Below, piece by piece: positions 443-9,161 of a stretch of DNA of 64,000 nt. The DNA is from an uncultured Coriobacteriaceae bacterium (lineage in GTDB: Bacteria; Actinomycetota; Coriobacteriia; Coriobacteriales; Atopobiaceae): positions 13,831 to 77,830 of the forward strand of contig CACYTH010000002.1 of assembly GCA_902777325.1 (NCBI GenBank), given 5' to 3'. Position 1 is the stretch's first letter, and every line of letters starts with the position of its first letter. Made by a program: the position numbers and the translations under genes. The notes under the pieces are model-generated. The model was not told the DNA's origin. It was given only the letters and a program-made list of their open reading frames with translations, and made no database searches.

Positions 443-472
443 TTGACAGGACCTTCTCGAATTGCCAAAATT
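443..472 (+). promoter_or_regulatory. candidate promoter of tRNA-Ala
   Basis: A consensus -35 TTGACA is at 443-448 and a weak AT-rich -10 (AAAATT) lies about 18 bp later at 467-472. This puts the start of transcription shortly before the tRNA-Ala 5' end at 492. Confidence 0.5.
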
Positions 473-491
473 ACCTGTGCACTCAACAAAC

Positions 492-567
492 GGGGATGTA
501 GCTCAGTTGGGAGAGCGCTGCCTTCGCAAGGCAGAGGCCGAGGGTTCGAATCCCTTCATCTCCACCA
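492..567 (+). tRNA. tRNA-Ala (anticodon CGC)
   Basis: The gene begins GGGGATG, pairs with CATCTCC, and ends with discriminator A and encoded CCA. The anticodon stem CTGCC/GGCAG encloses TTCGCAA, giving anticodon CGC, which reads GCG. The T-arm is GGGTTCGAATCCC. It is a single transcription unit with its own promoter and terminator. Confidence 0.95.
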
Positions 568-581
568 TATGACTCAACGCG

Positions 582-612
582 CCCTTCTGGTCATCCAGAA
601 GGGTGTTTTGCT
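582..612 (+). terminator. intrinsic terminator of tRNA-Ala
   Basis: CCCTTCTGG and CCAGAAGGG pair perfectly (9 bp) around TCAT, followed by TGTTTT, 14 bp after the tRNA. Confidence 0.85.
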
Positions 613-641
613 ATCTATCGAGGAGACAGGCGGCTCCAGGC

Positions 642-765
642 GGCGACTGGTCCGTCGTCGCGGACGGAACGGGGGCCGGTTGCGTCCCTAGGAGCGGACC
701 AGTGGCGACTGGTCCGTCGATCTGGACGGAACGGGGGCTCGTTTCGTCTCCCGGAGCGGACCTGT
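642..765. repeat. tandem pair of 62-bp intergenic repeats with internal palindromes
   Basis: Two head-to-tail copies (642-703 and 704-765) align without gaps at 51 of 62 positions. Each contains TCCGTC and GACGGA arms that are identical between copies around a variable centre. Across the junction CGGACCAGT (695-703) and ACTGGTCCG (708-716) form a perfect 9-bp inverted repeat around GGCG. The copies sit in a 447-bp gap without a convincing gene. The rest of that gap (766-1014) shows nothing recognisable except the ribosome binding site of the next gene. Function unknown. Confidence 0.8.
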
Positions 766-1014
766 GCGCACCTGCCGTACGACACCCGGCCAGCCGACAC
801 GCGACAATTCCAAAGTGGCGCAATCGTGAGCAAAAGTGGGCGATTCGCAGCAAGCGTTTCTCGTTTGTTGGGCGTAACCTTTGTACATAGCCGTTTTTAA
901 CTGGGCAATCTTCAGCTGACAGCTCTATTTCTATTTGTGTCGGAGGCCTATGTTAAAGAAGAGTCATCGCAAACTTGTTGCGCCAAACGACGAGTAGAAA
1001 AGGAGCAGTGCAAC

Positions 1015-1218
1015 ATGTTAGACAGCACCGGGGTTGACCAAAGCGCAATCGATGTGGCTGATCAGGCACTCGATCGCATTGCCCTCGTGGCAACCGCAAT
1101 TCCCGCCATGGGAGTTGAGTGCGATGATTCCGCCTCCCGAGGCGCCGCCTATGTGCTACTTGACGCCGTGGACGAGCTGCGAGCCTTTGTCCGTGCCGTA
1201 GACGCAAGCCTCAAGTAG
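1015..1218 (+). CDS. small hypothetical protein (67 aa)
   Basis: I do not recognise this protein. The ATG at 1015 is chosen because AAGGAG sits at a good distance upstream (about 1000-1005); the frame is open further upstream but without a better start. The product is acidic and probably mostly helical (segments DQSAIDVADQALDRIA and YVLLDAVDELRAFVRAV), without membrane segments or a signal peptide. It stands alone between the 62-bp repeats and the convergent M24 peptidase gene and ends 58 bp before a strong hairpin. Codon use resembles its neighbours. A DUF family not recognisable by eye is possible. Confidence 0.6.
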   Translation: MLDSTGVDQSAIDVADQALDRIALVATAIPAMGVECDDSASRGAAYVLLDAVDELRAFVRAVDASLK

Positions 1219-1275
1219 CAAAAGACCGACATCAGCCGTACGTCATAGCCAACGGCCGCGGCTATCCACAAGAAA

Positions 1276-1304
1276 CCGGACGCACGTGCACCACGTGCGT
1301 CCGG
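1276..1304. terminator. bidirectional hairpin between convergent genes
   Basis: A perfect 13-bp inverted repeat (CCGGACGCACGTG / CACGTGCGTCCGG) with a 3-nt loop lies between the convergent ends of the small gene and the M24 peptidase gene. There is no T-run, so termination is inferred from position and stability. Confidence 0.55.
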
Positions 1305-1376
1305 ATAATCACACCAAGAGATTCGCCGCCTCAAAAGACCGCATAGGCTTTGCGCGCCACTCCCCCACTGTTGCCG

Positions 1377-2501
1377 CTATATCTCGATAATCCGCAGGTC
1401 ATGCGAGGATGCGGTAAAGGGCTGATACCCTTCCGCCGTCACCACGCCACAGTCCTCGAGGCGAATGCCAAACTTGCCCGGCAGGTAGATGCCCGGCTCG
1501 ACCGTCACCACCGATCCGGCAGGCACGGGCTTGTCCCAGCTACGTCCAAATCCCGGATGCTCGTGAATCTCGATGCCCACGCCGTGACCAAGGCCATGAC
1601 CATAGTACGCGCCATACCCAGCGTCGCTGATCACCTTGACGGACAGGTCGTGGATGTCCTTGCCGATCACACCGGGCTTGATGGCGGCCGCGCAGGTCTC
1701 GTGCGCCTTGCGCACCACGTCGTAGACGTGGAACTGCTCGTCGGAGGGCTCGCCCAGGCAGACCGTGCGCGTCATGTCCGCATGGTAGTCGTGGTAGAGT
1801 GCGCCATAGTCCATCACGATAAGGTCGCCGGCCTCCACCTTGCGCGCACCGGGACGCGCGTGCGGGTTGGCACCGTTGGGGCCCGACGCAATGATCGTGT
1901 CGAAGGACAGGCCGTCGGCGCCATGGCTAAGCATGTAGTTCTCAAGCTCCGCCCTGATCTGCTGCTCGGTCATGCCGCACTTGATGTAGCCGCAGATGTG
2001 CTCGAAGGCGGCGTCGGTTACACGCTGTGCCTCCCGCAGCAGCTCGAGCTCCTCGTCATCCTTGACCATGCGCAGATCGCAGATGTCGCCATGCAGTCGA
2101 GGGAAGGACGGCGCGATGGAGGCGCAGGAGCATTCGTGGGCAAGCGCGTCGTAAAAGGCGAGGCTGCAGGTGTCCTCCACCGCCACCACGCGGGCTCGGG
2201 AGCCAAGGATGCGCTCGGCTGCCCACTTGGCATGCCCGGTCAGCTCCATGTCGATCTGCCAGGGACCGTCTGAGCCCATACGCTCGACGAAGCTGTTGTA
2301 GTAGCGCGAGTCGGTGTGGAGCCACAGCCCGTCGGCCGTGACGAATCCCGTATGTGCGACCTCGTCGTCAAAGACGCCACCGCAACCGGTGAGCCAGCGC
2401 AGGTCGGGGTTGTTTCGCAGAATGACGGCGTCGTAGCCGCGCTCGTTCATAAGCTCGCGCAGGCACTCGACCCTGCGGGCAAGATCACTCGCACTAGACA
2501 T
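1377..2501 (-). CDS. pepP: M24 family Xaa-Pro aminopeptidase
   Basis: This 374-aa cytosolic metallopeptidase should remove N-terminal residues that precede proline. The N-terminal creatinase-like domain (about 1-135) carries LRNNPDLRWLTG. The C-terminal pita-bread domain (about 145-374) holds all five expected metal ligands: two Asp in DYGALYHDYHADMTRT, His in GHGLGHGVG, Glu in VTVEPG and Glu in IRLEDCG. The ATG at 2501 has a good Shine-Dalgarno (GGAGAG). The frame extends upstream through non-coding-looking sequence that I excluded. It follows the aroB-like gene by 135 bp on the same strand, an order common in Gram-positive bacteria. PepQ-type prolidase is the main alternative specificity. 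Confidence 0.9.
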   Translation of the reverse strand: MSSASDLARRVECLRELMNERGYDAVILRNNPDLRWLTGCGGVFDDEVAHTGFVTADGLWLHTDSRYYNSFVERMGSDGPWQIDMELTGHAKWAAERILGSRARVVAVEDTCSLAFYDALAHECSCASIAPSFPRLHGDICDLRMVKDDEELELLREAQRVTDAAFEHICGYIKCGMTEQQIRAELENYMLSHGADGLSFDTIIASGPNGANPHARPGARKVEAGDLIVMDYGALYHDYHADMTRTVCLGEPSDEQFHVYDVVRKAHETCAAAIKPGVIGKDIHDLSVKVISDAGYGAYYGHGLGHGVGIEIHEHPGFGRSWDKPVPAGSVVTVEPGIYLPGKFGIRLEDCGVVTAEGYQPFTASSHDLRIIEI

Positions 2502-2636
2502 GGACTCTCCTTCGTTTGCTTCGGATAACCCATGCACTGTAGCACTAATGCGCCGCGCGATGCACCTTTCCGGGCGGCGTGACACCCAATTGCCCGCACG
2601 CTCGCGCAGATGCCACACGCGACGCCGTCGCTCTGG

Positions 2637-3743
2637 CTAGCCCTCGCGGGAGGCGCACCAGGCGGCAACGTGCTCGGCGATGAGCTCGTCGGTCACGGCA
2701 GCCAGACGCACACGCCCCAACTTGCGCGGAAGCCCGAGAAGGAAGCGGTTGGAGCGCTTGAAGCGCTCCTGGCGGATCGCCTCGATAAGCGCGTCAGGAG
2801 CAATGCTCACCTGCGCCATGGGAAGCTCCAGCATCTCGAGAAGCTCGTCTTGGGCCAGCACGTCGTCCACCGCAAACATGCCCTCCCCCGCCGCGAGACG
2901 CGCCTGGAAGCGCAGGGCCTCCGCACGGGCAGTCGAGGGCGCGATGCTGGCGTCAAGGCACGTCAGAGCGCGCGCAAAGGCCTCTCCGTAGGCAAGGGAC
3001 TGCCTAAGCGCCAGCGCCGTGGACGAGAGGATCTTGCCACGCGTCTTGACCGTGTCGCGCAGCTGCTCGCAGAGCGTCTCCACGTCACCCGCGCAAAGCC
3101 CCTCCGCATGGTCCCAAAGGTGCTCGAAGGCCTTCTCGGAGTCGCACATGGCCGTGACCACCATGAGCACGCGGCTCATCAGCACGTCCTCAGGCACGAC
3201 ATTGCCAAAGACGACGTCGGTGTCAAAGAGCACGTGCTTGACGCCCGTGCGCACGGAAAGCACCGCCTGGCTGTCTCCCACGCCGATCGGACGGGGGCTC
3301 ACCGCTGCCTCGACGAGGCCCATCTGGGTGGTCGGCACCGTCACCAGGGTGGTTCCCGCGCACCATTGGGTGGCTGCGTAGGAGGCAAGCGAGCACACGT
3401 CGGCGTCGCCCACGGCAACGATGAGATCATCGGCGGTAAGGCCCATTTCGGCAAACTGGGAGAAGAGCGCACCAGAGGCCTCGAGCGTGAGAGCGGCAGG
3501 ACCGGCCACGACCTCCACGAGCGTCACCTCGAAGCCCGCGTCGGTCAGCTGGCGGCGCACGCGCTCCGTCAGCTCTGCGTCAACGTCGGAGCCAGACGCC
3601 AGAGCGGCGATGCGCGGACGCCCCACGGAGCCCTTGAGCAGCGCGGACGCATTGTCAATGACGTCCGTGCCCAGACGGACGTCAAGCGACCCTCCCGGCA
3701 GTGACACCCATTGGCGCGCCGCCATCGACGTCCTCTCGCTCAT
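2637..3743 (-). CDS. 3-dehydroquinate synthase-like protein lacking the catalytic residues
   Basis: The 368-aa product aligns along its length with AroB: a Rossmann-like N-terminus, the motif LVTVPTTQ (family QVPTTLL), the region around residues 215-235 and a C-terminal helical domain. The signature residues are gone. The VGGKT loop reads VSPRPIG, the Zn-ligand Glu of the AE..K helix is replaced (SRVLMVV), GHTFGHA reads YGEAFARA, and the HGEAV motif has no His. Known AroB needs these for Zn2+, NAD+ and substrate, so catalysis is unlikely. It starts at ATG 3743, overlapping the aroK stop by 4 bp (ATGA), which indicates translational coupling. It may be a pseudoenzyme partner of AroK or a repurposed protein. 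Confidence 0.75.
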   Translation of the reverse strand: MSERTSMAARQWVSLPGGSLDVRLGTDVIDNASALLKGSVGRPRIAALASGSDVDAELTERVRRQLTDAGFEVTLVEVVAGPAALTLEASGALFSQFAEMGLTADDLIVAVGDADVCSLASYAATQWCAGTTLVTVPTTQMGLVEAAVSPRPIGVGDSQAVLSVRTGVKHVLFDTDVVFGNVVPEDVLMSRVLMVVTAMCDSEKAFEHLWDHAEGLCAGDVETLCEQLRDTVKTRGKILSSTALALRQSLAYGEAFARALTCLDASIAPSTARAEALRFQARLAAGEGMFAVDDVLAQDELLEMLELPMAQVSIAPDALIEAIRQERFKRSNRFLLGLPRKLGRVRLAAVTDELIAEHVAAWCASREG

Positions 3744-4291
3744 AAGAGCCCCCTTTCCCACAGCAGGCTGCCGGCCTCGGTGGCCACCTGGTCAAACGTC
3801 TTGTTGCGGATGTCGATGGTGATGTCGGCCTCTCGCTGGTAGAGGGGCCTGCGATGGCGATAGAGCTCCGCCGCCTGCTCGACGGTGACAAAGTCCGGTC
3901 GGCGCTCGGGGTGCTGGATCTGCCGCAGGGAGTCCTCGAGGCTTCCGTCGAGGTAGACGATGGTGCCCATCTCGTGCATGAGCGCGCAGCACTCGGGCCG
4001 CTCGACGATCCCACCGCCGCAGCTCACCAAGAGCGACTTTCGCTTGGAGAGGTCGCGCAGCGCCCGCTCCTCGCCCAGGCGAAATGCCTCCTCGCCGTCC
4101 TCGGCAAATATGTCATTGACCGACTTGCACTCGAGGCGCTCCACAAGGCGGTCGGTGTCGATGTAGGCGCGATGGAACAGCCGCCCGAGGTTTCTCGCCA
4201 GCGTGGACTTGCCCGCTCCGAGGAAACCGACAAAGAACACGTGATCACACCCTTCGTGAACGATGTAGCCCCTCTCGCTCACCGCGCTCAC
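3740..4291 (-). CDS. aroK: shikimate kinase
   Basis: Shikimate kinase phosphorylates shikimate at O3 with ATP. The 183-aa length fits the family. Visible elements are Walker A GFLGAGKST (about 21-29), the shikimate-binding Asp in IDTDRLVE, an Arg in EAFRLGEE, the GGG loop in SCGGGIV, and the lid Arg in RRPLYQR, so the active site looks intact. The start is GTG at 4291, overlapping the yqeG stop by GTGA; the longer frame to 4372 lies inside yqeG and is unlikely. Its own stop overlaps the aroB-like ATG. The contrast between an intact kinase and a degenerate AroB neighbour is notable. Confidence 0.9.
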   Translation of the reverse strand: MSAVSERGYIVHEGCDHVFFVGFLGAGKSTLARNLGRLFHRAYIDTDRLVERLECKSVNDIFAEDGEEAFRLGEERALRDLSKRKSLLVSCGGGIVERPECCALMHEMGTIVYLDGSLEDSLRQIQHPERRPDFVTVEQAAELYRHRRPLYQREADITIDIRNKTFDQVATEAGSLLWERGLL

Positions 4292-4788
4292 TCGCCCTCG
4301 AAGGACCGGCCATGCAAGATCATGCGCTCGCCTATGCGCATGATGTGGGTGTACCAGAGGTCGGTCGTGCACTGCGGACGCACCAGAACGGTGCGGACGC
4401 CGGCAAGGTTGCCCGCCCAGACATCGGTATAGACCTGGTCCCCAATGAGGATCGCCTCGCTCGGCCGCACGCCCATCTTGCGCAGGGCCGCGCGCACCGC
4501 AAACGGGAAGGGCTTCATCGCATGATGGATCACGTCGCTGTCAAGCTCGGCAGCGGATCGCTCCACCTGCTTCGAGTGGAAGTTGTTCGAGACGATGCAG
4601 GTGGTCATGCCCGCCTCGTGCACGCGCCTGATCCAGTCCATGACCTCGGGCGGGGCCACCTTGGAGTTGCGCGGGACGCACGTGTTGTCGCGATCCATGA
4701 GCACGCAGCGCACACCGATGGACTTGAGCCAGTCGATGTCGATCATCTCGATGGCATGAATGTATCTTGTAGCACCGAAGACAGCCAT
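4288..4788 (-). CDS. yqeG: YqeG family HAD IIIA-type phosphatase
   Basis: The 166-aa HAD hydrolase carries motif I as LMDRDNT (Asp nucleophile and Asp acid/base), motif II Ser/Asn in IVSNN, Lys in MKPFPF, and motif III GDQVYTDVWAGN. This pattern and size match the YqeG / PGP phosphatase group; the substrate is not known from the sequence, though related enzymes act on phosphatidylglycerophosphate or unknown phosphomonoesters. It lies 6 bp after mltG and overlaps aroK by 4 bp, so it belongs to the same minus-strand operon. Confidence 0.85.
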   Translation of the reverse strand: MAVFGATRYIHAIEMIDIDWLKSIGVRCVLMDRDNTCVPRNSKVAPPEVMDWIRRVHEAGMTTCIVSNNFHSKQVERSAAELDSDVIHHAMKPFPFAVRAALRKMGVRPSEAILIGDQVYTDVWAGNLAGVRTVLVRPQCTTDLWYTHIMRIGERMILHGRSFEGE

Positions 4789-4794
4789 GGTTGC

Positions 4795-6096
4795 CTAACC
4801 GTACAGCGACTCGTTGATGGCCTGCTGGTGCTCCTCGTAGGTCTCGGAGAACTGATGGACCTTGTCGTTGATGAAGAAGTACAGGTACTTGGTCTCGGAC
4901 GGGTCCATGGCGGCCTGGATGGAAGCGAGGCTCGGCGAGCAGATGGGCGTCGGCGTGAGCCCCGTGTAGAGATAGGTGTTGTAGGGGCTGTCGGTCTGAA
5001 GGTCGTCAGCCGTGACCTCGCCGCCCGTCACGTACATCATCGTGGCGTCGCTCTGGATGGCCATGCCGATGGAGAGGCGGTTGTAGATGACCGACGCCAC
5101 CAGCGGGCGGTCCTCCTCCGTCACGGCCTCCTTCTCGATGATGGACGCGACCTTGATCAGGCCGTAGTCGCTGATGTCGATGCCGTACCTCTCGCGGAGG
5201 GTCTCGCGCGCCTTTGCCATGTCGAGCGAGGCGACCTCGGTGTTGTACTGGTCGAGCATGGTGCGGATCACAGCGTCGGCCGACGCGTCGTCGTCGCTCA
5301 TGGAGTAGGTCTTCGCAAAGAGGAATCCCTCGAGGGAGTCGTCGGAGACGTTCTCGAGGAAGGGGTAGTCATCCACGTAGTTGGACGCCTTTGCCTGCCC
5401 CAGGAACTCGTCGGCGGAGATGCCCAACTGGCTCTCCACGTTTGCCGCCGTCTGGGAGACGGTGAGGCCCTCGGCGAGCTTGAGCTGGTACTGCGTCGCA
5501 TTGGGGCCGCTCACCAGCTGCTTGACCACCTCGGAGATCGTGGCTCCGGTGATGAACTGGTAGGTGCCGCTCTTCAGGTTGGTGTCGGCGTTCTGCTTCT
5601 GGACCTCCTGGTAGAAGGCAGACTCGTCGGAGATGACGTGGTTGTCGATGAGCAACTGGGCGATCGCGGCGCCACCCGAGCCGTCAGGGATGACGACGAT
5701 GACCTCCTCGCCGGAGGGGTACTCGTCCGCAACGGGCTGATTGCGCTGGAAGAGCTTGGGAACCACGAGGAAACCCGCGGCGACGACGCCCATCACGGCG
5801 AGCACCACGAGAAGCATGACGAAGGGGAAGGCACCGTTCCTCTTGCTGGAGCCATTTCCGGCCTGCGACCTGCGCTTGCGTGCGGCCGCTGCGCGCTGGG
5901 TCGCACGCGCGGTGCGCTCCGACATCTGGACGGTGGAGGTTGGCTTCTGCGCCGCATGCGCTGATGAGCTGTTGGCAGCACGGCTGGTGGCGCTGCGCGG
6001 GGTGGCACTGCGGCGTGCGGTGCTTCCCTGCTCCGAAGAGTTGGAGAAGTGCGCCGCCCTCCTGCCTCGCGAATTGTCCTGGCTCGTGGGCATCAT
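4795..6096 (-). CDS. mltG: endolytic murein transglycosylase MltG
   Basis: MltG cleaves nascent glycan strands at the membrane and sets peptidoglycan chain length. The 433-aa product has a long Arg/Ser/Ala-rich cytoplasmic N-terminus (about 1-88), one membrane segment (about 90-112, FPFVMLLVVLAVMGVVAAGF), a LysM-like region and the YceG catalytic domain with the Glu in VASIIEKEAV. The family motif YNTYLYTGLTPTPI, which binds glycan, is also present. It begins 6 bp after the ruvX stop with two consecutive ATG codons (6096 and 6093). The low-complexity N-terminal tail is longer than in E. coli and typical of high-GC Gram-positives. Confidence 0.92.
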   Translation of the reverse strand: MMPTSQDNSRGRRAAHFSNSSEQGSTARRSATPRSATSRAANSSSAHAAQKPTSTVQMSERTARATQRAAAARKRRSQAGNGSSKRNGAFPFVMLLVVLAVMGVVAAGFLVVPKLFQRNQPVADEYPSGEEVIVVIPDGSGGAAIAQLLIDNHVISDESAFYQEVQKQNADTNLKSGTYQFITGATISEVVKQLVSGPNATQYQLKLAEGLTVSQTAANVESQLGISADEFLGQAKASNYVDDYPFLENVSDDSLEGFLFAKTYSMSDDDASADAVIRTMLDQYNTEVASLDMAKARETLRERYGIDISDYGLIKVASIIEKEAVTEEDRPLVASVIYNRLSIGMAIQSDATMMYVTGGEVTADDLQTDSPYNTYLYTGLTPTPICSPSLASIQAAMDPSETKYLYFFINDKVHQFSETYEEHQQAINESLYG

Positions 6097-6102
6097 CAGT
6101 CC

Positions 6103-6516
6103 TTACGATCGTCTGGCATCTAGCCAGGCCTGTAGAAACAAGGATGCGGCGACCATATCGACCTTACCGCGCATGGCACGCTCACTCATCCCCTCCTCAC
6201 GTAGGATACGCTTGGCCTCGCGTGAGGACAGCCGTTCGTCGGCAAATTCCAGAGGAAGGCCGCATGCCCGGGCGATTTGCTCCGCCTGGGCCATGATGCG
6301 CTCCGCCTGGGGACCGTCCTCCCCTGCCATGGTCTTCGGCCGCCCACAGACAAGCAGGTCAGGCTCGTAGTCCTCCAGCACGCGCCTGAAGGTGCGCGCA
6401 TGCTGGAGGACCTCCTGTGCAGGAAGGACGACGACGGGAGAGGCCACGGTGGCAGACGCGTCGCTTGCCGCGATGCCGATGCGGACCTCCCCTATGTCAA
6501 GCGCGAGGACGCGCAC
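6103..6516 (-). CDS. ruvX: RuvX/YqgF pre-16S rRNA nuclease, RNase H-like
   Basis: The 137-aa protein has the YqgF signature LALDIGEVRIGIA at the N-terminus (first catalytic Asp), LLVCGRPKTM with the following Glu region, and the C-terminal FADERLSSREAKRIL and DMVAASLFLQAWLD with the last catalytic Asp. The family processes the 16S rRNA 5' end and was originally annotated as a Holliday junction resolvase. The start is GTG at 6516, sharing one base with the alaS stop codon (TAGTG), so it is translationally coupled to alaS. Confidence 0.92.
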   Translation of the reverse strand: MRVLALDIGEVRIGIAASDASATVASPVVVLPAQEVLQHARTFRRVLEDYEPDLLVCGRPKTMAGEDGPQAERIMAQAEQIARACGLPLEFADERLSSREAKRILREEGMSERAMRGKVDMVAASLFLQAWLDARRS

Positions 6517-9161
6517 TAGGCCTCCAGCATCTCGCGGGCAGCGGCAAGAGCAGCGTCGATGCCGCTCACGTCGCTTCCGCCAGCCTGGGCCATCGTGGGC
6601 TTGCCGCCGCCGCGACCGCCGACGAGCGCGGCCACGTTGCGGATGACGTCGCCGGCCTTGAAGCCAGCGGCAACCGCCGCGTCGGTGCCGGCGGCGAGAA
6701 GCGCCACCTTGCCCTCGGGCGTTGCGGAGGCGAGCACGCAGGCGCAGGCAGCGCCAAGGCGGTCGCGCACCGTGTCCCAGGCACCGCGGATCTCCTTGCC
6801 GTCGATGCCGTCGAGACGTGCGACGACGAGCTTGTAGTCGCCCTTGTCGATGGCGGCTGCCACGGCATCGGCAACCTTGTTGGAGGAGCCACCGGTAAGG
6901 GCGGCGCGGAGCTTCTTGTCAGCCTCGCCCTTGTCGTGCTGCAGCGCGGCAATGCGGGCGGGAACCTCGGAGGGGCGGCACTTGAGCGCACGGGCAGACT
7001 CCTGGAGCTGGCCCAGGCACTCGTCGAGGTACTGGATGGCGCCGACGGAGGTCATGGCCTCGATGCGGCGCGCGTTGGAACCGACCGAACCCTCGGAGAC
7101 GATCTTGAACAGGCCGATCTCGGCGGTGTTGCGTGCGTGCGTGCCGCCGCAGAGCTCGCGGGAGAAGGGCACGTCGACGTCGTCGGTGGAGACCACGCGC
7201 ACCACGTCGCCGTACTTCTCGCCAAACAGCGCGACCGCGCCTGCGGCCTTGGCCTCCTCGATGCCCATGACCTTGGTGACCACCGGCTTGGCGGCAAAGA
7301 TCTCGGCGTTGACCATGCCCTCGATGCGGGCGATCTGCTCGGCGGTGAGGGCCTCGAAGTGCGTGAAGTCGAAGCGCAGGCGGTCAGGCGCCACCAGCGA
7401 GCCGGCCTGGTTGACGTGCTCGCCGAGCACCTTCTTGAGGGCGGCGTCGAGCAGGTGGGTTGCGGTGTGGTTGCGGCGGATGAGCTCGCGACGGCCGTGG
7501 TCGATGGTGGTGGAGACGGCGTCGCCCACCTTGACCGTGCCCTCTACCAGCTCGCCCACGTGGGCGACGAGGCCGCCCTCGTGATGGCGGGCGTCGGTGA
7601 CGTCCATCGTGAAGCCCTCGGCGTCGATGACGCCGGTGTCGGCGGACTGGCCGCCCATCTCGCCATAGAAGGTGGTGCGGTCGAGCACGAGCTCGACGAC
7701 GTCGCCGGCGGCAGCGCTCTCGACCTCGGCGCCCTCGCGCACGATGGCAAGCACCTTGGCGCCGTCGAGCGCGTCCTCGTCGTAGCCGAGGAACTCGGTC
7801 TCGGGCAGGCGGTCGGAGAGGGCAGTCCACACGTCGTTGAAGGTGCCCCAGGCGTCACGGTTCGCGCTTGCGCGGGCACGCTCGCGCTGCTCGGTCATGC
7901 AGCGGTCGAAGGCATCCATGCCCACGCCGTGGCCGGCGGCCTCGCAGATCTCGCGGGTGAGGTCGATGGGGAAGCCGTAGGTGTCATGCAGCTTGAAGGC
8001 GACCTCGCCGGGCAGGTCGGTACCCTCGTCGAGCTTGGCCAGCTCGGTCTCGAGGCTTGCCTCGCCAGCGTCGAGCGTACCGTTGAAGCGCTCCTCCTCG
8101 GCCTGGAGGATGCCCAGGATGAGGGCCTTGTTCTCGGTGAGCTCGGGGTACACGTCGGCCATCAGGCGCATGACCTCCTCGGAGTAGGCCGTGAGGAAGG
8201 TGCCCTCGATGCCCATGAGGCGGCCGTGGTAGACGGCGCGGCGCAGGAGGCGGCGCAGCACGTAGCCGCGGCCCTCGTTGCCCGGCAGGATGCCGTCGCC
8301 GATCATGAAGGTGACCGAGCGGCTGTGGTCCGCGACGATGCGCAGGGAGCGGTCGATGCGGGCGTCCTCGCCGTAGGTCTTGCCGGAAAGGCTCTCGCCC
8401 ACGCCGATGAGGGAGGTCAGCACGTCGCCGTCATAGTTGGTGCCCTTGTGCTGCATGATGGCGGCAATGCGCTCCAGGCCCATGCCGGTGTCGATGTTGC
8501 GGTGCGGGAGGTCGGGCAGCGAGCCGTCCTCCTGGCGGTCGTACTGGGTGAAGACGAGGTTCCAGAACTCGAGGTAGCGGTCGCCGTCATCGCCAGGGGC
8601 CTCTCCCTCGTACTCGGGGCCCTGGTCGAAGTATATCTCGGAGCAGGGGCCGCAGGGACCGGTGGGGCCGGCCGCCCAGAAGTTGTCGTCGGCGCCGAGG
8701 CGGGAGATGTGGTCGTAGGCGACGCCGTGGGAGTGCCAGAGCTCGATGGCCTCGTCGTCGTCCTCGAAGACGGTCATGTACAGGCGATCCTTGGGAAGGC
8801 CCAGGTGCTCGGGCTCGGTGATGAACTCCCAGGCCCAGGCGATGGCGTCGGCCTTGGAGTAGCCGCCGAAGGAGAAGTTGCCGAGCATCTCGAAGAAGGA
8901 GAGGTGGCGCGAGTCGCCGATGTTGTCGATGTCACCGGTGCGGACGCACTTCTGGCAGGAGCAGGCACCGATGTCCGGCATGGTCTTGAGTCCCTGGTAG
9001 TACTCCTTGAACTGGTTCATGCCGGCGTTGGTGAGAAGCAGCGACGGGTCGTCGGGCACCAGCGACGACGACGGGTAGAGCTTGCACCCCTTGGACTCGA
9101 AGAACTTGAGGAAGTCGTCACGAATCTCGGCCGTGGTCATGGTCTTGTAGTCAGCACTCAT
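6516..9161 (-). CDS. alaS: alanyl-tRNA synthetase
   Basis: AlaS charges tRNA-Ala. The 881-aa length is normal. Domains in order are the class II catalytic core (1-240; motifs around FFESKGC, TNAGMNQFKEYYQG and NIDTGMGLERIA), a tRNA-binding helical region, the editing domain with Zn ligands in HTATHLLDAAL and CGGTH, and the C-terminal DHHA1/C-Ala domain ending GGRGGGKPTMAQAGG. The ATG at 9161 is followed by ADYKTMTTAEIRDDFLKFF, the expected N-terminus. It leads the alaS-ruvX-mltG-yqeG-aroK run and is separated from the upstream sigma gene by a terminator. Confidence 0.98.
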   Translation of the reverse strand: MSADYKTMTTAEIRDDFLKFFESKGCKLYPSSSLVPDDPSLLLTNAGMNQFKEYYQGLKTMPDIGACSCQKCVRTGDIDNIGDSRHLSFFEMLGNFSFGGYSKADAIAWAWEFITEPEHLGLPKDRLYMTVFEDDDEAIELWHSHGVAYDHISRLGADDNFWAAGPTGPCGPCSEIYFDQGPEYEGEAPGDDGDRYLEFWNLVFTQYDRQEDGSLPDLPHRNIDTGMGLERIAAIMQHKGTNYDGDVLTSLIGVGESLSGKTYGEDARIDRSLRIVADHSRSVTFMIGDGILPGNEGRGYVLRRLLRRAVYHGRLMGIEGTFLTAYSEEVMRLMADVYPELTENKALILGILQAEEERFNGTLDAGEASLETELAKLDEGTDLPGEVAFKLHDTYGFPIDLTREICEAAGHGVGMDAFDRCMTEQRERARASANRDAWGTFNDVWTALSDRLPETEFLGYDEDALDGAKVLAIVREGAEVESAAAGDVVELVLDRTTFYGEMGGQSADTGVIDAEGFTMDVTDARHHEGGLVAHVGELVEGTVKVGDAVSTTIDHGRRELIRRNHTATHLLDAALKKVLGEHVNQAGSLVAPDRLRFDFTHFEALTAEQIARIEGMVNAEIFAAKPVVTKVMGIEEAKAAGAVALFGEKYGDVVRVVSTDDVDVPFSRELCGGTHARNTAEIGLFKIVSEGSVGSNARRIEAMTSVGAIQYLDECLGQLQESARALKCRPSEVPARIAALQHDKGEADKKLRAALTGGSSNKVADAVAAAIDKGDYKLVVARLDGIDGKEIRGAWDTVRDRLGAACACVLASATPEGKVALLAAGTDAAVAAGFKAGDVIRNVAALVGGRGGGKPTMAQAGGSDVSGIDAALAAAREMLEA

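Follow-up and report, generated by a model that had tools for sequence, protein, structure and literature searches.

The window, which is the whole 64,000-nucleotide stretch of DNA from an uncultured Coriobacteriaceae bacterium that was analysed here (contig CACYTH010000002.1, positions 13,831 to 77,830), carries on its minus strand the gene order alaS, yqgF, mltG, yqeG, aroK, P-aroB, pepQ. Our subject is the gene at 2637 to 3743 and its product, referred to here as P-AroB. The features are the following:

1377..2501, minus strand: PepQ-like M24 peptidase, downstream of P-AroB (profile search, synteny)
2637..3743, minus strand: P-AroB, an AroB-fold protein of 368 aa read as catalytically dead (open reading frame, profiles, fold, residue columns)
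3003..3005, minus strand: codon of P-AroB Arg247, the R264 equivalent (Arg or Lys in 64/64)
3039..3041, minus strand: codon of P-AroB Arg235, the K250 equivalent (Arg in 60/64)
3740..4291, minus strand: the local AroK, with an ATGA overlap with P-AroB (PF01202, 126.5 bits; residue table)
3893..3895, minus strand: codon of the AroK lid Asp (RPD, not RPLL/RPLF; residue table)
4288..4788, minus strand: YqeG-type HAD phosphatase (TIGR01668, 120.5 bits)
4795..9161, minus strand: mltG, yqgF and alaS, conserved upstream genes (open reading frames, same order in relatives)

The P-aroB frame begins with an ATG at 3743, ends with a stop at 2637-2639 and overlaps, with its start, the stop of the upstream aroK by 4 bases (ATGA). 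The GTG at 4291 as the start codon of AroK is our choice, and the names mltG, yqgF and alaS were read from the open reading frames, with no family search behind them. In the loci read that extend that far, P-aroB directly precedes pepQ. An annotation or frame artefact is ruled out by the presence of a copy in 18 of 18 genomes of the window's genus. Antisense to P-aroB there is a 364-codon open frame (window 2610-3704, plus strand), which we take to be the high-GC mirror of the coding strand.

In profile searches P-AroB scored 31.3 bits against the Pfam family PF01761 (cut-off 24.2) and 50.2 bits against the NCBIfam aroB profile TIGR01357, well under its cut-off of 305, while membership of TIGR04425, the AroB-related sugar phosphate phospholyase profile, is ruled out by 15.5 bits against a cut-off of 400. 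The best solved relative by phmmer is the M. tuberculosis AroB (3qbd, 1e-12). An AlphaFold model built on an alignment of 80 sequences (pLDDT 96.4, pTM 0.94) matches V. cholerae AroB with a Foldseek TM of 0.85 and A. baumannii AroB (5eks) with a VIA Z of 40.6 and an rmsd of 2.5 over 351 aligned residues. The model shows the AroB fold in full, and with it the fold-wide similarity to 3-dehydroquinate synthase that the original prediction had noticed is borne out.

P-AroB is not the only AroB of its genome. PF01761 searched over the window's genome found two places, P-AroB (33.7 bits) and a canonical AroB at G000:C4:62035 onward (158.4 bits), in which every scored active-site residue is present. 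The latter lies in an aromatic-synthesis cluster that also holds DAHP synthase, tyrA, aroA, aroC, pheA and an aroE-aroK fusion; these names were read from open reading frames, and aroA, aroC and the kinase domain were confirmed by family searches. Since this canonical AroB has all its active-site residues, the chorismate pathway does not depend on P-AroB, and of the two ways out originally offered for such a genome, another AroB elsewhere proved to be the right one and salvage that skips the AroB step need not be invoked. The fusion in the cluster also means that the genome contains two shikimate-kinase domains. Within L003:3806-12962, which covers the cluster, two DAHP synthase-like frames accompany the AroE-AroK fusion.

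To describe the active site, columns were located by motif in the window genome's own canonical AroB, with labels that we take to follow the Aspergillus nidulans AroB numbering, and were read over 64 P-AroBs, 54 from the window's family and 10 from its sister family (L007, which ends at a contig edge, and duplicate fetches of the same genomes were left out). Neither zinc-ligand His is kept in any of the 64, the zinc-ligand Glu column holds Glu in one, and D146, K197, N162 and D119 are each kept in none; of the NAD-binding GGG..D motif, the third Gly survives in 3/64 and the Asp in 0/64. In 41 intact AroBs (24/24 from clusters and 17/17 from pepQ loci) every one of these columns is fully wild type. 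The claim that zinc ligands and catalytic residues had been replaced in this protein thus holds well beyond the window, and a pseudoenzyme of AroB fold, as had been proposed, is supported by the loss of metal, NAD and catalytic residues on an intact fold. P-AroB is like AroB (TIGR01357, PF01761/PF24621) in its whole fold and in its aroK-aroB-pepQ position, but differs from it in being without zinc ligands, NAD motif and catalytic residues and in reaching 50 of the 305 TIGR01357 bits.

Basic residues persist at other columns of the old active site. The R264 position holds Arg or Lys in all 64 P-AroBs, and Arg is found at the K250 position in 60, at the K356 position in 51, at the K152 position in 43 (with Lys in 3 more) and at the H275 position in 42. 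We take the K152, K250, R264, H275 and K356 positions to hold the carboxylate and phosphate of the substrate, as in the A. nidulans structure, and because basic residues persist at these substrate-anion positions we read the P-AroB pocket as probably still anion-binding. Such a pocket is not universal, since the Arg at the K250 position is missing from the P-AroB of three genomes (G047, G027 and G024). Many residues are invariant over 54 P-AroBs, for example W127, R278, R282, H358 and W362.

The window's family is Atopobiaceae, as judged by named relatives including Olsenella and Thermophilibacter, and P-AroB was found in 139 of its 140 genomes, with 35 genera searched; 137 of the 140 match at E 8.1e-69 or better, and two (G047 and G027) were assigned by locus. 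G062, where 8,000 of the 13,001 bases of L199 beside pepQ read N, is for that reason uninformative on the loss of AroK or P-AroB, and its reading as a co-loss of both was dropped. The sister family (f10), which we take to be Coriobacteriaceae, has P-AroB in 63 of 65 genomes at E 4.2e-65 or better by hand count; the exceptions are G305, whose locus is rearranged, and G317 (72% complete), with a weak match alone. In other families the best match in the same search was 1.3e-53, and rows without a match there are not to be read as absences, as G263 holds an intact-looking aroB (L202) that the search had missed. The full-length P-AroB matches listed have no internal stops; a TGA occurs in a single broken fragment, from G086. 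In L166 (G061, 3589-7590) and L162 (G305, 455-8600) the locus is rearranged and P-AroB is split, with its C-terminal piece in frame behind an AlaS stretch, an arrangement that may be an assembly error or a tandem duplication.

Outgroup families have an intact AroB in this position ahead of pepQ, mostly in the order aroC-aroK-aroB-pepQ. These intact pepQ-locus AroBs have in common with P-AroB the motif AEGMRFxARL and a C-terminal EHxxAW-like tail, a signature that cluster AroBs are without, except for L143, which has a locus-type sequence. Because the outgroup AroB shares both the place and the C-terminal signature, we regard P-AroB as the locus AroB after the loss of catalysis, and that P-AroB is a dead enzyme descended from the pepQ-locus AroB is almost certain. 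Degenerate AroBs also occur at the pepQ locus outside the two families (G175/G284, G253/G314, G304 and G143), and G175, G284, G253, G304 and G143 have a second, better-scoring AroB place in the genome; the loci of other families with such degenerate copies are L142, L177, L144, L178, L179 and L151. The P-AroBs of both families form a single clade (SH-aLRT 100), and a constraint that groups all degenerate AroBs with P-AroB in one clade is rejected (p-AU 3.3e-5), in a tree from which L164, L165, L152, L153, L147 and L134 were left out and which, like our other trees, is a quick search with SH-aLRT as its only support and with long branches present. In another tree L164 and L165, both on long branches, join each other, and their position is uncertain. 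We take it as shown, at the level of sequence, that P-AroB underwent its predicted loss of catalysis in the common ancestor of the two families. Other lineages went through similar losses; one common origin for all of them is rejected, and the number of origins is at least two. A picture of real decay is given by G320, whose pepQ-locus AroB (L200, 5232-5972) is truncated to about 240 aa with altered active-site motifs, while its pepQ is intact; AroC was not found in this genome and AroA was found.

Over 15 pairs, 14 of them P-AroB pairs, the dN/dS of the locus AroB lies between 0.04 and 0.38, with 0.20 for the independent degenerate pair L142/L177, and over the same pairs it lies at 0-0.09 for AroK and 0.01-0.24 for PepQ. 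P-AroB evolves faster than AroK in 15/15 pairs and faster than PepQ in most; it is under purifying selection, mostly looser than that on its neighbours. The fold is kept up even in the 1.0-Mb genome G047, whose P-AroB is only about 22% identical and whose model (pLDDT 91; Z 36.8, rmsd 2.9, 351 aligned) has the same fold. With its catalytic residues lost, purifying selection and orthologues over many genera, P-AroB is a pseudoenzyme under selection.

The neighbouring AroK had been credited with all active-site motifs, which is correct for the P-loop, D34, R58, GGG, R117 and R136 and incorrect for the lid, where shikimate kinases have RPLL and the window's AroK has RPD, with Asp in place of Leu119. 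Beside P-AroB the Leu119 position is Asp in 53 and Glu in 1 of 54 AroKs (L051, L059 and L069, second fetches of the same genomes, were left out of this count); beside intact AroB the lid is RPL in 13/14 and RPM in 1/14, and beside the other degenerate AroBs the position holds Y, Y, Y and F (n=4). Further changes are R58 to Ser in L144 and L178, and in the f7 genome (G145) Leu119 is kept beside a degenerate AroB, but Gly80 is Asp. A study of the M. tuberculosis shikimate kinase places Pro118 and Leu119 in the wall of the shikimate pocket and names Arg58, Arg117 and Arg136 as residues that bind substrate or product (PMC7144000). Because a lid residue at a shikimate contact has changed, the local kinase may have shifted off shikimate, which we offer as a correlation within few lineages.

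AroC was not found in 5 of the 140 family genomes (G016, G025, G026, G027 and G047), in 2 of the 65 sister-family genomes (G258 and G287) or in G145, the sole f7 genome, and a P-AroB-type gene is kept in every one of these genomes. Nor was a true AroA found in any of them (matches of 66-82 bits, cut-off 287), and canonical AroB was not found in G258, G145, G047, G025 and G016; G026 and G027, each with a second match in the AroB search, were not counted as lacking it, and G287, with a masked stretch near its cluster, was left out of the pathway-loss argument. Canonical AroB is present in G105. The clearest case is G258, which is 99% complete and consists of one contig: 51 probes of about 20 kb (1,019,681 of 2,115,681 bases) contained no N, so that any masked stretch must be shorter than 22 kb, and no aro gene was found there beyond the locus itself, except for one weak 33% DAHP-synthase-like match. 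The assemblies of G145, G047, G025 and G016 are drafts, 86-94% complete, and nine 20-kb probes of G047 were free of N. Genomes that keep P-AroB thus appear to lack chorismate synthesis, one of them (G258) being complete. AroK still adjoins the P-AroB-type gene in G258, G145, G026 and G016 and is gone from beside it in G024 and G025 (both of one genus), in G027 and in G047; in these four genomes, too, P-AroB precedes pepQ. In G047 (L165, about 5900-6400) and G027 (L174, about 4000-4500) an open reading frame that by eye looks like a GxGD prepilin peptidase occupies the place of aroK, between yqeG and P-aroB. Most genomes of genus g70 (G191 and others) have two chorismate synthase matches.

Because P-AroB is selected for even where the whole pathway appears to be lost, it probably does something else. 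The window's genome and most relatives have a second aromatic cluster with an AroB of its own, and the copy at the aroK-aroB-pepQ locus, judged by its residues, lost metal binding, NAD binding and catalysis while its fold and reading frame stayed under selection. We propose that the old substrate pocket, with its arginines at the K152, K250, R264, H275 and K356 positions, might hold a phosphate- or carboxylate-bearing ligand and relay this to another protein through direct contact. That protein would usually be the adjacent AroK, which would have moved away from shikimate as well; a second partner would have to exist, since P-AroB outlives AroK in some genomes. As a whole, this explanation of a dead locus AroB repurposed as an anion-binding partner outside chorismate synthesis has, in our estimate, about an even chance of being right, and the particular role of P-AroB as an anion-binding, non-catalytic partner protein outside that synthesis is put forward tentatively. 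It is possible, if rather unlikely, that the aroK-aroB pair was converted more than once in Coriobacteriia into an altered-pocket small-molecule kinase and an anion-binding dead cyclase working outside the shikimate pathway. Such a two-protein module would point to an ancestral second role of the locus AroB, one that outlived catalysis and even the whole pathway.

We chose the reading as an anion-binding partner because a dead AroB beside an altered kinase resembles two known systems, SKL1/SKL2 and QutR. Plant SKL1 and SKL2 are described, in the accessible part of the report, as ancient shikimate kinase duplicates that lost kinase activity, gained other roles and were kept by selection, with the RPLL lid motif not conserved in SKL1 (PMC2593004). 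Like P-AroB, they are shikimate-pathway duplicates retained under selection after losing their old activity; unlike it, they derive from shikimate kinase, belong to plants and, in that part of the report, come without an AroB-derived partner. Fungal QutR-type repressors are thought, in the accessible text, to be inactive AROM derivatives that still recognise the inducer (PMC10512348). So far as that text goes, they resemble the P-AroB proposed here in that dead shikimate-pathway domains are thought to bind an inducer and act by protein contact, and they differ in being made of shikimate kinase, dehydratase and dehydrogenase domains and in serving eukaryotic transcription control. Apart from that text, the activator QutA is described as holding a DHQS-like part.

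The best-surviving alternative, which we nevertheless consider unlikely, is a new enzyme, in which the AroB fold would use newly conserved residues to catalyse some other reaction, free of metal and NAD, on a different substrate. The many invariant residues over 54 P-AroBs, among them W127, R278, R282, H358 and W362, and the conserved charge of the pocket would suit such an enzyme. AroB-related sugar-phosphate cyclases (2-deoxy-scyllo-inosose synthase 2gru, ValA 4p53, DDGS 5tpr, TIGR04425) combine the AroB fold with a changed substrate, but the entries for those among the structural matches (2gru, 4p53, 5tpr) include bound NAD and metal, whereas P-AroB has lost both sites and reaches 15.5 of 400 bits for TIGR04425. 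Nor do the former catalytic positions show any evident set of conserved acid-base residues.

That P-AroB assists AroK had been suggested from the start, and a helper that activates or stabilises AroK in a shikimate kinase role inside the pathway would account for the ATGA overlap and for an adjacency to aroK that is conserved in nearly all loci read. As an only role this is not supported, because four genomes (G024, G025, G027 and G047) keep P-AroB with no AroK next to it, and it also persists in genomes without detectable AroA, AroC or canonical AroB; with the lid of AroK changed at a shikimate contact and a second shikimate kinase fused to AroE in the canonical cluster, we think a helper within the pathway quite improbable. 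A remnant kept solely for the translation or transcription of pepQ, its protein being irrelevant, is very improbable: pepQ does follow P-aroB immediately wherever the loci read extend to it, and P-aroB evolves faster than most neighbours, but its dN/dS is far below 1, Trp, Arg and His residues are invariant over 54 proteins, the fold is intact, the full-length matches listed are free of internal stops, and real decay looks different, as in G320 with its truncated AroB before an intact pepQ. A divergent and still active 3-dehydroquinate synthase with relocated metal ligands, in spite of similarity over the full fold, is hardly credible for a protein with no His at either ligand position in 64/64, a canonical AroB in the same genome and persistence where the rest of the pathway appears to be missing.

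Our literature search, outside which most subscription papers lay, found no description of the P-AroB family, and in the accessible part of one paper that links dehydroquinate synthase with a pseudoenzyme, the pseudoenzyme is TrpC-TrpF (PMC11528492). Routine annotation likely labels P-AroB genes as 3-dehydroquinate synthase, and such labels would credit common gut bacteria with two AroBs, or apparent auxotrophs with one. The family offers a natural experiment: several lineages have lost catalysis, some have lost the pathway or the adjacent AroK, and still the protein is retained. Culturable Olsenella-type and related bacteria would allow a direct test of whether a textbook enzyme has a concealed non-catalytic role, as an anion-binding partner or otherwise.
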